Positions 13,240-37,024 of a DNA stretch of 38,410 nt are shown in pieces; within the stretch, counting starts at the first letter, position 1, and every line of letters begins with the position of its first letter. A program made the translations under genes and the position numbers. The stretch spans positions 1-38,410 of the forward strand of contig MNYC01000049.1 in assembly GCA_001872945.1 (NCBI GenBank), in the 5' to 3' direction. The notes below the pieces were generated by a model that was given only the letters and a program-made list of their open reading frames with translations, searched no databases and was not told the origin of the DNA. This stretch comes from a bacterium CG2_30_37_16. Its GTDB lineage: Bacteria > Patescibacteriota > CPR2.

Positions 13240-13380
13240 GTATGTACTCACTAGGTCCATCAATTTGTCATCCCGCACTTAGATGCGGGATCCATTCTTC
13301 CTGGATTCCAGATCAAGTCTGGAATGACACTGTAGTCACATAGAAATCTTACATAAAATAGGGGTCTAGTGAGTAAATAC
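13240..13380. mobile_element. MITE-like element with terminal inverted repeats and an internal double-hairpin palindrome
   Basis: Left end GTATGTACTCACTAGGTCC (13240-13258); the reverse complement of the right end (13362-13380) is GTATTTACTCACTAGACCC, 16/19 identical. Interior palindrome at 13266-13329. Confidence 0.6.
13266..13329. repeat. REP-like double-hairpin palindrome TGTCATCCCGCACTTAGATGCGGGATCC...GGATTCCAGATCAAGTCTGGAATGACA
   Basis: Two hairpins (CCCGCA/TGCGGG and ATTCCAGA/TCTGGAAT) bounded by TGTCAT/ATGACA; same architecture as 33765-33827. Confidence 0.85.
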
Positions 13381-33675: not shown

Positions 33676-33704
33676 TTGATATCTAAGTTATTTTTAGATA
33701 TAAT
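33676..33704 (+). promoter_or_regulatory. Promoter of the ileS T-box leader
   Basis: TTGATA (33676-33681) - 17 bp - TATAAT (33699-33704). Confidence 0.85.
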
Positions 33705-33764
33705 ATCATTATAAAAGCGTTCAAGTCCGGCCATCACCGGATTAGCTGCCGGAAGAACCCGTTC

Positions 33765-33827
33765 TGTTATTCCGAGCTTTGAACCGGAATCCGTATGAAT
33801 GGATTCTGAATCAAGTTCAGAATGACA
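33765..33827. repeat. REP-like double-hairpin palindrome inside T-box Stem I
   Basis: TGTTATTCCGAGCTTTGAACCGGAATCC-N8-GGATTCTGAATCAAGTTCAGAATGACA; same design as 13266-13329. Confidence 0.85.
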
Positions 33828-33900
33828 AGATAGCACTAGAACCGGTCGGATAAGCCCGTTAAAGCTGTAATCAAGTTGTCCCCAGACATAAAGAGACGAA

Positions 33901-33957
33901 GTCCTGAGCTTGTCGAAGGAAATTAAGGTGGTACCGCCCTGAGCATAGCCGAAGGGG
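33901..33957. repeat. Two copies of a short palindromic repeat (TCCTGAGCTTGTCGAAGGA / CCCTGAGCATAGCCGAAGGGG)
   Basis: 33901-33920 and 33937-33957; shared core CCTGAGCnTnGyCGAAGG. Confidence 0.85.
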
Positions 33958-33958
33958 T

Positions 33959-33990
33959 CCTTAAGAGAATTCTTAGGGATATTTTTATAT
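33959..33990 (+). terminator. Regulated terminator of the ileS T-box leader
   Basis: CCTTAAGA-GAAT-TCTTAGGG then ATATTTTTATAT. Its 5' arm CCTTAA is also the partner of TTAAGG (33923-33928) in the antiterminator. Confidence 0.85.
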
Positions 33991-34005
33991 AAAAAGAGAA
34001 CTTTG

Positions 34006-34105
34006 AAATTCTAATATCTAAGCATGAAATGCTAAACAAATTCAAATATCTAATGTTTAAAACCTTTGAATTTAGATATTGTTTAGTATTTAGATATTAA
34101 AATTT
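34006..34105. repeat. AT-rich large imperfect palindrome between the T-box and ileS
   Basis: AATATCTAA...CTAAACAA...ATATCTAA / TTAGATATTGTTTAG...TTTAGATATT can form a long interrupted hairpin. Confidence 0.7.
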
Positions 34106-34129
34106 AGGATTTAAAAAAAGGGAGTCATT

Positions 34130-37024
34130 ATGTTGAAACCAGTAAGTCCAAGACCAAATTTTCCGGAAATGGAAAAAGATATTTTAAAATTTTGGAATAA
34201 AAATAAAACATTCGAAAAAACGCTTTCTAAAAGGTCACATGAAAAATCGTTCTCTTTTTATGATGGCCCTCCATTCGCTACAGGTCTTCCGCACTATGGT
34301 CATTTGCTGGCTGGTACTATAAAAGACGTTATCCCCAGATATAAAACCATGCAAGGCTACAGAGTTGATAGAATTTGGGGTTGGGATACGCATGGCTTAC
34401 CAATTGAAAATATTGTTGAAAAGGAATTAGATATTAAAACTAAACTTCATATTAAAGAGATGGGCATTGATAAGTTTAACGAAAAATGCCGGGAAAAAGT
34501 TTTGGAATTTGCTCATACCTGGGAAAAAATTGTAGAAAGAACAGGTCGCTGGGTTGATATGAAAAATGCTTATATTACCATGGAGCCGGAGTATATGGAA
34601 TCGGTTTGGTGGGTATTTAAGTCTCTATGGGATAAAGACTTAGTTTATTCTGGTCATAAAGTAATGCCATATTGCCCAAGATGTGCTACCGGACTTTCGG
34701 CTTTTGAAGTGGGTATGCCCGGCACTTACCAAGATAAGCAAGATAAAGCTATCACCGTAAAATTCGAATCGTCAGATGAGCCAAATACTTTCTTTTTAGC
34801 TTGGACCACAACGCCATGGACGTTACCGGGAAACTTGGCTTTGGCAGTTGGTGGAAATATTGATTACATAAAAGTTCAAAATGAAAAAGAGAAATTTATT
34901 ATCGCAAAAGATCGTTTAGAGCATTATCAAGATATAATTGGAAATAATGTTGTAGAGACGTTTAGTGGACAAAACCTAAAAGGTAAAAAATATAAACCAA
35001 TATTTGATTATTATAAAGGCGAAGAAAAAGCTTTTGAGGTCATAACCGGCGATTTTGTAACCACCGGAGATGGCACCGGAATTGTCCACATTGCACCTGC
35101 TTTTGGTGAAGATGACTATAAGGTGGCTAAAGAAAACGACATTGCTTTTTTTATGCCGGTGAACGATATGGGGGAATTTGAAATTGAGGTGTCGGAATGG
35201 GCCGGTGAAAGTGTCATAAAATCAGAAACTAATTTAAAAATAATAGAAAATCTTGGCAATAAAGTTATAAAAGTTGAGGATTATAAACATTCTTATCCAT
35301 TTTGCTGGAGATGTGACACGCCTCTAATTTATAAGGCAATCGATAGTTGGTTTGTTAAAATGACAAATCTAAAAGAGCAAATGGCTAAAAATAACAATGA
35401 CGTTCATTGGGTTCCAGAATTTGTTGGGAAGGGCAGATTTGCTAATCTTATAGAAGGAGCACCGGACTGGAACATTTCTAGAAACCGTTTTTGGGGTGTG
35501 CCAATTCCCATATGGCGATGTAAGGATTGTGGCGAAAGTCAGGTTATGGGAAGCATTAAGGATTTAGAAGATAAAACGGATAGGAAAATTGGGGATATAC
35601 ATTTACATAAAATAATGGATCTAGAATTAAATTGCTCATGCGGCAGTAAGGCAAAATTAACCGGAGAGGTATTGGATGTATGGTTCGACTCCGGAAGTGT
35701 ACCTTATGGATCCATCCATTATCCCTTTGAAAACAAAGAAAAATTTGAGCGTGATTTCCCAGCCGATTTTATTGCCGAAGGTATCGATCAAACAAGAGGC
35801 TGGTTTAACTCTCTAATGATTTTAGGAACGGCGCTTTTTGGTAAGTCGCCATATAAAAATGTGGCAGTTAACGGAATCGTTCTAGCAGAAGATGGCCAGA
35901 AGATGTCTAAAAGACTCAAGAACTATCCCGATCCGACCGCTATTATGGATAAATATGGCGCTGATGCCATGCGCTTTTATCTTTTGTCCTCACCAGCCGT
36001 AAAAGGAGGCGATCTAAATTTTTCAGAAAAAGGCGTAGATGAAGTTATTAAAGGTCTTGTTTTAAAATTATGGAATTCATATTCTTTCTTTGTAACCTAT
36101 GCCTTAATCGCCAATTTTAAACCGGAGAATGTAGAAAATAAGGATATTCTTGATAAATGGGTTTTATCGCGGCTAAATAATACTATAAAAACGGTTACGG
36201 AAGAATTGGATAATTATGAATTGCCAATCGCCGCTAGAGCTATTGGAGATTTTATTGACGATCTTTCTAACTGGTACATAAGAAGAAACCGAAAACGTTT
36301 TGCAGCTCGGGATAAGGAGGCTTTAAATACCCTTTACGAAGTTTTGGTTAAACTTTGTCAATTGCTGGCGCCATATATGCCATTTGTAACAGAAGAGATA
36401 TACCAGAATCTGGTTTTAAATTTAGATTCCAAAGCAAATGAATCAATTCACTTATCGGATTTCCCCCTAGCTAGTAAGGATGTTATTGATAATAAATTAG
36501 AAGAAGACATGGACGTCTTGAGAAAATTTGTAGAAATGGGACTTTCTATTAGAGATAGGTCAAAAATAAAAGTCAGACAACCATTATCAAAAGTTTGGGC
36601 CACCTACGGTAAGGATCCCATTGTAAAAGACATGCAAAGGATTCTTCTTGAAGAGCTAAATATTAAGCTCTGCAGCTCTGATAATAAAAGCTATGTGCGT
36701 AAATCAGCCGAATCTTTGAATTATAAAAAAGGGCTAGATATTGTAATTGATATCAATATTACTAAAGAACTAGAGTCGGAAGGTTTAGCTAGAGAGCTTC
36801 TAAGGAAGATTCAGGTTTTAAGAAAAGAGATCGGTCTATCAATAGAGGATGAAATTATTTTAAGCTACGAGACTGACGATGAGGATTTAGTTAAGGCCAC
36901 GAACCATAAAGTTTTTATAGATGGAGCTAAAGTTAAGTTATTAAAAGAAAGTGATTTGGCTGATGAGGGAAAGAATTTAACTGTAAATGATAAAAAGATA
37001 AAAGTTGAAATAAAAAAAGCCTAA
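34130..37024 (+). CDS. ileS: Isoleucyl-tRNA synthetase (eukaryote-like/type 2)
   Basis: GPPFATGLPHYGHLLAGTIKDVIPRY, GWDTHGLPIE, GQKMSKRLKNYPDP. Confidence 0.97.
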   Translation: MLKPVSPRPNFPEMEKDILKFWNKNKTFEKTLSKRSHEKSFSFYDGPPFATGLPHYGHLLAGTIKDVIPRYKTMQGYRVDRIWGWDTHGLPIENIVEKELDIKTKLHIKEMGIDKFNEKCREKVLEFAHTWEKIVERTGRWVDMKNAYITMEPEYMESVWWVFKSLWDKDLVYSGHKVMPYCPRCATGLSAFEVGMPGTYQDKQDKAITVKFESSDEPNTFFLAWTTTPWTLPGNLALAVGGNIDYIKVQNEKEKFIIAKDRLEHYQDIIGNNVVETFSGQNLKGKKYKPIFDYYKGEEKAFEVITGDFVTTGDGTGIVHIAPAFGEDDYKVAKENDIAFFMPVNDMGEFEIEVSEWAGESVIKSETNLKIIENLGNKVIKVEDYKHSYPFCWRCDTPLIYKAIDSWFVKMTNLKEQMAKNNNDVHWVPEFVGKGRFANLIEGAPDWNISRNRFWGVPIPIWRCKDCGESQVMGSIKDLEDKTDRKIGDIHLHKIMDLELNCSCGSKAKLTGEVLDVWFDSGSVPYGSIHYPFENKEKFERDFPADFIAEGIDQTRGWFNSLMILGTALFGKSPYKNVAVNGIVLAEDGQKMSKRLKNYPDPTAIMDKYGADAMRFYLLSSPAVKGGDLNFSEKGVDEVIKGLVLKLWNSYSFFVTYALIANFKPENVENKDILDKWVLSRLNNTIKTVTEELDNYELPIAARAIGDFIDDLSNWYIRRNRKRFAARDKEALNTLYEVLVKLCQLLAPYMPFVTEEIYQNLVLNLDSKANESIHLSDFPLASKDVIDNKLEEDMDVLRKFVEMGLSIRDRSKIKVRQPLSKVWATYGKDPIVKDMQRILLEELNIKLCSSDNKSYVRKSAESLNYKKGLDIVIDINITKELESEGLARELLRKIQVLRKEIGLSIEDEIILSYETDDEDLVKATNHKVFIDGAKVKLLKESDLADEGKNLTVNDKKIKVEIKKA

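Follow-up and report, generated by a model that had tools for sequence, protein, structure and literature searches.

Palindromic genomic repeats at helix tips of T-box leaders with an ultrashort Stem I in Patescibacteria

The leader of the isoleucyl-tRNA synthetase gene (ileS) in the analyzed window, a 38,410-nt stretch of DNA corresponding to contig C43 in a genome of 896 kb (98% complete, labelled G000), carries at the tip of its Stem II a copy of a palindromic repeat that is found throughout the same genome. Judged from its sequence, this leader is a genuine T-box of an unusual kind, in which an ultrashort Stem I is combined with an intrinsic terminator. We consider it probable that the T-box works, and that self-folding repeats at the helix tips of structured RNAs do so little harm that they are retained, one copy being swapped for another.

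Results

Anatomy of the ileS leader

The following features were recognized in the window, the transcript start being placed at about 33711 by the promoter:

13266..13329, + strand: intergenic copy of the double-hairpin repeat family found in Stem II, by pattern match and self-folding
33676..33704, + strand: sigma-70-type promoter, TTGATA-17-TATAAT, 11/12 consensus bases
33713..33747, + strand: ultrashort Stem I, a hairpin of about 35 nt with an AGC/GCT base and a TCCGG/CCGGA hairpin, both helices covarying
33749..33845, + strand: Stem II, CCGG (33749-33752) paired with CCGG (33842-33845), covarying, with the repeat at its tip
33765..33827, + strand: GTCATTC-type double-hairpin repeat at the tip of Stem II, TGTTATTC...GAATGACA
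33847..33858, + strand: Stem IIA, CGG (33847-33849) with CCG (33856-33858), covarying, 100% of cells paired
33903..33919, + strand: copy of a short repeat, CCTGAGCTTG[TC]CGAAGG, at the Stem III position, a weak hairpin
33925..33962, + strand: antiterminator, AAGG (33925-33928) with CCTT (33959-33962), apical segment CCCTGAGCATAGCCGAAGGGG
33957..33980, + strand: intrinsic terminator, a hairpin with a T run after it
33985..34125, + strand: A+T-rich palindromic stretch between terminator and ileS, with partial matches elsewhere
34130..37024, + strand: ileS, isoleucyl-tRNA synthetase, 964 aa (PF00133, PF08264)

The loop of Stem I consists of six bases (CCATCA, 33731-33736) and holds the specifier codon ATC (33733-33735), which matches the downstream gene. 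The T-box bulge TGGTACC (33929-33935; motif UGGN-ACC) lies inside the antiterminator. The CCTT that closes the antiterminator on its 3' side also serves as the 5' strand of the terminator hairpin, making the two pairings mutually exclusive. At the S-turn position Stem II has an internal loop of AAGAA and ACTAGAA, in which the GAA of the S-turn (GAA/AGUA) is present and the 3' strand reads ACTA versus the expected AGTA; the latter was found in the ileS leader of G001 and in the leaders of G002, two relatives of G000 in the same family (f1), and ACTAGA also occurs in leaders without inserts.

An initial annotation of this DNA had described a well-formed T-box with the palindrome at 33765-33827 in the apical region of Stem I. 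The T-box is real, but of an unusual kind with an ultrashort Stem I. Its score with the Rfam T-box model RF00230 was 34.6 bits, below the gathering cut-off of 93; this cut-off is a database threshold, derived from T-boxes with a long Stem I, and not a functional feature. The palindrome, in turn, was relocated: covariation and the promoter put it at the tip of Stem II, since a transcript starting at about 33711 leaves only the hairpin at 33713-33747 as Stem I. The Stem I placement given by Rfam was rejected because it would begin some 70 nt before the transcript start deduced from the promoter. The leader resembles the canonical transcriptional T-box of RF00230 in its bulge, its antiterminator/terminator switch, and its Stems II and IIA, and differs from it in having no long Stem I, and hence no room for contact with the tRNA elbow.

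As the anatomy and knowledge of the family suggest, the leader would respond to tRNA-Ile by transcription attenuation, using its ultrashort Stem I. When uncharged, the tRNA would pair both with the ATC codon of the Stem I loop and, at the T-box bulge, with UGGU, and this pairing would hold the antiterminator and prevent formation of the terminator at 33957-33980.

T-boxes with an ultrashort Stem I across the phylum

Five leaders gathered by similarity (L013, L031, L015, L032 and the L014/L074 leader) supplied the 5' cores for a covariance model (R1), and a search of 379 genomes of the phylum with this model detected R1-type leaders in 100. A total of 105 R1 leaders, drawn from separate sets (72 + 20 + 13), were read, the model builders being within the 105 and matching by construction. 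Among 80 named loci, 13 had R1 matches, 12 in records titled as Patescibacteria and one in an unplaced 'bacterium' MAG. It is from these named matches and from its relatives that G000 is assigned to Patescibacteria; in a contig scan its IleS had only relatives of about 50% identity or less. The covariance modelling proposed in the initial annotation upheld the core: in a model-fitted alignment of 74 R1 matches, 98.3% of the cells of the core helices were paired and 297 cells had changed on both sides, compared with a shuffled mean of 74 and a best slid version of 83.

The T-box bulge motif was present within 260 nt downstream in 103/105 R1 leaders; L274 and L282, which stay in the 105, had no such motif by pattern, and L282 may be a false match. 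A terminator-like hairpin with a U run followed within 65 nt of the bulge in 93/103 leaders (6-11/103 in five shuffles), and a promoter-like site lay within 60 nt upstream in 62/104 (11/104 shuffled). Thirty downstream ORFs were tested, 28 of which were synthetases (Ile 7, Val 11, Asp/Asn 9, Tyr 1), and the codon agreed with the synthetase in 28/28, a count that includes four codons read by eye (the automatic column being shifted) and four AAC cases before an Asp or Asp/Asn ligase, counted as agreeing. Together with the codon agreement, the bulge, terminator and promoter counts indicate, at the level of sequence, that R1 leaders combine an ultrashort Stem I with T-box control of transcription. 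Other gene contexts were also encountered: codon GTC before a shikimate-dehydrogenase-like ORF (L110), codon TCC before a phosphatase-like ORF (L094), and, in Candidatus Moraniibacteriota UBA11098 (L115, 1460-2490), a T-box followed by an ORF that reads as nucleotidyltransferase-like and then by ileS.

According to PMC7583486, T-boxes acting on transcription generally depend on a long Stem I that carries an elbow-binding motif, because their binding must be fast; most translational T-boxes have an intermediate or ultrashort Stem I, and the ileS T-box of Actinobacteria (class II) is translational with an ultrashort one. In PMC7778990, the class II model of TBDB is applied to Actinobacteria and to class I matches with a truncated Stem I. 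The Patescibacteria leaders resemble the Actinobacteria type in that a short Stem I, placed at the transcript start, presents the codon in its apical loop, a criterion of the ultrashort class, and in having a Stem II with a putative S-turn, Stem IIA, the bulge and an association with ileS. They differ in that ribosome-site sequestration, also a criterion of that class, was not found, an intrinsic terminator standing in place of the sequestrator; in their occurrence also before valS, Asp/Asn and Tyr synthetase genes; and, in some, in their repeat-derived helix tips. A literature search confined to papers outside subscription found no account of T-boxes from this phylum and none of a T-box combined with REP.

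The Stem II palindrome as a genome-wide repeat

The palindrome at 33765-33827 (63 nt) folded on itself with -28.7 kcal/mol (z -6.7; 0/200 shuffles as good), and the intergenic element at 13266-13329 also self-folded better than chance (z -4.4). Both were matched by a single pattern, GTCATTCN{9,20}GAATC, in agreement with the family relationship that the initial annotation had proposed for them. Hairpins of the GTCATTC...GAATGAC type numbered 56 in G000 (27 + 29; reversed-pattern control 0), where the initial annotation had named absence elsewhere in the genome as evidence against its reading. The same hairpins were counted in the family relatives G001 (69) and G002 (24) and in genomes outside the family (G011, 208; G013, 70; G151, 60; G237, 29; the L115 genome, 19), and the pattern found none in G006 and G060; the reversed-pattern control gave 0 or 1 over the counted genomes. 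A 236-kb sample of G000 contained 10 full GTCAT[TC]C...G[GA]ATGAC elements, 8 of them outside crudely called ORFs, while each of 20 shuffles gave 0 or 1.

Copies could also be traced by exact sequence. The second arm of the window element is identical over 25 nt to sequences at C29:14416 and C59:1265 of the same genome, and in each of the other five family leaders one arm is likewise matched by another copy in the genome of that leader, exact matches for repeat arms being 25-30 nt long.

REP/BIME elements carry a GTAG box and are associated with a RAYT transposase. The window repeat resembles them in being a short palindrome with many intergenic copies, often as inverted pairs, and differs in that the GTAG box is absent from the f1 element, which is bounded by GTCATTC/GAATGAC, and in that the link to a transposase is only a candidate one. 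A Y1 transposase (PF01797) was found in 11/14 genomes, and in 2/16 loci a Y1 gene and full repeats shared a stretch, about 1 kb apart. Pieces of Y1 genes were located at or near the ends of seven G000 contigs (C28, C29, C33, C34, C46, C47 and C48), where a multi-copy element therefore probably breaks the assembly.

Elements in Stem III and the antiterminator

The pre-antiterminator hairpin and the apical segment of the antiterminator had also been regarded as repeat-derived palindromes. The former, the Stem III element CCTGAGCTTGTCGAAGG, had five further copies in the 236-kb sample of G000 when up to 3 mismatches were allowed (against 0 in a single shuffled sample), but its hairpin was no better than chance (z 0.07); it is a short repeat of the CCTGAGC...CGAAGG type with poor self-folding. 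Its count comes from the sample search only, because the pattern CCTGAGCNTNGNCGAAGG, with a 5-base spacer, could not match an element whose spacer has 4 bases. The antiterminator palindrome CCTGAGCATAGCCGAAGG was single-copy by exact pattern, had two related sites in the sample, one with 3 mismatches and the other with 4 (shuffle: 1), and folded like its own shuffles (z -1.05), so that its reading as a repeat was dropped. Of the three repeats proposed for places where shape and not sequence matters, the large palindrome was substantiated, another makes a weak hairpin and the third was not shown to be a repeat.

In Stem III of the G002 ileS leader a second repeat is nested inside a palindrome of the TTGCGAG type, and both parts recur in G000, G001 and G002. 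By reading, the valS leaders of G002 and G000 have a Stem III of the same type; used as query, the G000 insert matched only itself in the sample at E 0.05, and with the G002 ileS copy as query TTGCGAG-type arms recurred in all three genomes. Stem III of the G001 valS leader is a plain hairpin.

Distribution among related leaders and other lineages

An element was present at the tip of Stem II in 6/6 ileS and valS leaders of family f1 (G000, G001 and G002), with differing arms. These leaders span two genera and two genes, and the six cases may share ancestry, reflecting one or two events. None of 10 class-sister leaders (families f3, f4 and f6) had a GTCATTC element in Stem II, a contrast that came from the sister-genome comparison suggested in the initial annotation. 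The class sisters G011 and G013 lack the element in Stem II despite their 208 and 70 hairpins genome-wide, and G007 has a long Stem II of other sequence.

Among the R1 leaders, 13/105 had repeat-type palindromes in Stem II, in at least four lineages (f1, f22, G151 and L115). Those of G151 (ileS) and L115 are of the GTCATTC type. In family f22, leaders of G294 and G378 carry GTAG-hairpin REPs, with elements reading GTAG-N2/3-hairpin and hairpin-CTAC; the 14-base hairpin GCCGATTTATCGGC had 22 copies in G294 and 7 in G378, T-box copies included (reversed-pattern control 0). REP pairs in Stem II of G107 and G202 and the Stem II palindrome CCCTTCGACTTCGCTCAGGG of G361 were assigned by likeness; the assignment of the repeats of L269, L112 and L270 is by likeness and not by an exact-sequence count, and for L279 and L115 the family, and not the exact copy, was counted in the genome.

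The valS leader of G000 (L031, G000:C46:7457-7645) has an ileS-type Stem I with CTAGTCA in place of CCATCA and the same CCGGATTAGC. Its core is 0.84 identical to that of the ileS leader, its insert only 0.56. It reads as a copy of the ileS T-box whose codon went from ATC to GTC, and in which the repeat would have been replaced since or the core converted; either way, high core identity against low insert identity suggests that the repeat has turned over.

Inserts in RNase P RNA

Palindromic inserts were also found in RNase P RNA, whose helices are named here after the standard RNase P map (P3, P12). In the RNA of G000 (L251, G000:C32:3727-4246) the P12 loop is enlarged by a palindromic insert of 147 nt; in that of G001 (L255, G001:C12) P12 is plain and a similar element occupies P3; and that of G002 (L257, G002:C2) is expanded by inserts at P3, at P12 and at one more site. 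The three scored 214.5, 197.2 and 167.3 bits, respectively (cut-off 100). Class sisters lack such inserts, the RNase P RNAs of G004, G005, G006 and G011 measuring 365-386 nt without them, and the model search detected no RNase P RNA in G007 and G013. The copy number of the A+T-rich elements was assessed by BLAST in the G000 sample only, where the P12 element had one partial match elsewhere (36 nt). The stretch at 33985-34125 matched three other places, one of them after the valS terminator (75%), and an element resembling it sits inside RNase P RNA.

On another contig of G001, a second, divergent RNase P RNA match (L258, G001:C14:18307-18706; 108 bits) was detected, which is maybe contamination or a second gene. 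By reading, the tmRNAs of G000 and G002 had no convincing repeat insert, and tmRNA scored below cut-off in G001, G007 and G013.

Predicted folding and conservation of the T-box core

In the predicted fold of the whole leader, the window repeat was paired with itself (0.81) and not outside (0.00), and the Stem II inserts of 6/6 family leaders had a predicted pairing with the rest of the leader of at most 0.05. Core pairing was better than with dinucleotide-shuffled inserts in 4/6 leaders (0 to 5 of 100 as good), an advantage that was absent from G001 ileS (23/100 shuffles as good) and G002 valS (93/100). Five Stem III inserts gave 4, 6, 12, 31 and 100 of 100 in the same test. Unconstrained folding missed the antiterminator in 5/6 family leaders (0.17 in the sixth) and found no core at all in the G002 valS leader, and was for these reasons rejected as proof of the T-box fold.

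Identity between family leaders was 0.67-0.84 for the core and 0.49-0.76 for the insert, the insert being less conserved than the core in 13/15 leader pairs. Specifier, bulge and terminator were intact in the 5 further family leaders (the codon of L074 by eye).

Discussion

Our preferred explanation is that of a working T-box with tolerated inserts. A copy of a genome-wide palindromic repeat would have come to lie at the tip of Stem II, where it folds on itself and its inverted ends extend the Stem II helix; because it does so, the tRNA-binding core would remain undisturbed and the repeat would be accommodated. Its effect would be neutral or nearly so, and it would have been kept through the divergence of the family and sometimes replaced by other copies. 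The general proposal of the initial annotation, repeats at helix tips where only shape matters, is borne out for the large palindrome by the six family T-boxes, by four or more lineages and by RNase P RNA.

That annotation had gone further and suggested that repeats were recruited into the riboswitch. The Stem II repeat is there, but selection for function is not needed by the data, which tolerated insertion explains equally well. Recruitment would mean that the palindromes add a function, by stabilizing Stems II and III or by delaying the polymerase so that tRNA binds before the terminator is made, a delay that would offset the tRNA-elbow contact missing from the ultrashort Stem I. We rate this as unlikely, while recognizing that the element has been kept in 6/6 family leaders across two genera and two genes, that Stem II palindromes recur in other lineages, and that the long Stem I, which according to PMC7583486 transcriptional T-boxes generally need for fast binding, is absent here. 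Yet 92/105 ultrashort leaders, and likewise the class sisters, are without a recognized Stem II repeat, and RNase P RNA has the same kind of insert while needing no delay, which points to plain tolerance. The number of independent lineages, in single digits, is little to tell tolerance from benefit. Mobile repeats might instead prefer hairpin tips, in which structured RNAs are rich; repeats nested in repeats (by reading, in G001 valS, G000 valS and G002 ileS), the different RNase P helices occupied in sister genomes (P12 in G000, P3 in G001, both in G002) and the presence of Y1 transposase genes would fit. This appears quite improbable, as insertions into the core would be lethal and go unseen, giving the same pattern without any preference; moreover, full repeats lie near a Y1 gene in only 2/16 loci, about 1 kb off, and the family has no empty site, so that a target duplication is unreadable.

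Degeneration of the leader, with constitutive ileS expression and repeats marking lost constraint, could account for the S-turn strand ACTA, the indistinct Stem III and the Rfam score below cut-off. It is very improbable given the intact specifier, bulge, promoter and terminator of the window, the intact specifier, bulge and terminator of the 5 further family leaders, and a core better conserved than the inserts; in addition, ACTAGA also occurs in insert-free leaders. Nor is it credible, beyond a trace of doubt, that the palindromes are ordinary native hairpins with an accidental likeness to repeats: the antiterminator hairpin, single-copy and folding like its shuffles, is compatible with this, but the 25-30 nt exact matches and the 56 copies against a control of 0 refute it for the Stem II element. 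Tolerated insertion into a working T-box is the reading we consider most probable.

Rickettsia palindromic elements are palindromic repeats inserted in genes and kept as extra folds, mainly known for proteins; they differ from the window repeat in sequence and phylum. Work by Vioque in 1997, cited in PMC2858038, reportedly described STRR repeats in cyanobacterial RNase P RNA, which are likewise genomic repeats within a structured RNA, and which differ in being tandem, not palindromic, and confined to RNase P.

A bolder reading, which we offer as a speculation and consider unlikely, is that Patescibacteria possess a large class of terminating ultrashort T-boxes in which, in several lineages, mobile palindromic repeats were exapted as interchangeable Stem II and Stem III helices, insulating the core, lengthening the leader and buying time for binding; repeats of the same kind would have given rise to expansion helices in RNase P RNA, and repeat capture would be a general route by which these small genomes make and remake structured RNAs. 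If true, terminating ultrashort T-boxes would represent a combination that present models deem too slow at tRNA binding. A transcriptional T-box with an ultrashort Stem I departs from the stated rule that in general ties transcriptional T-boxes to a long Stem I. Sister lineages, paralogues within the same genome and RNase P RNA provide the comparisons by which insertion, replacement and benefit become directly testable. The capture of genome-wide palindromic repeats at the helix tips of RNAs suggests that selfish-looking DNA may be built into working RNA machines.
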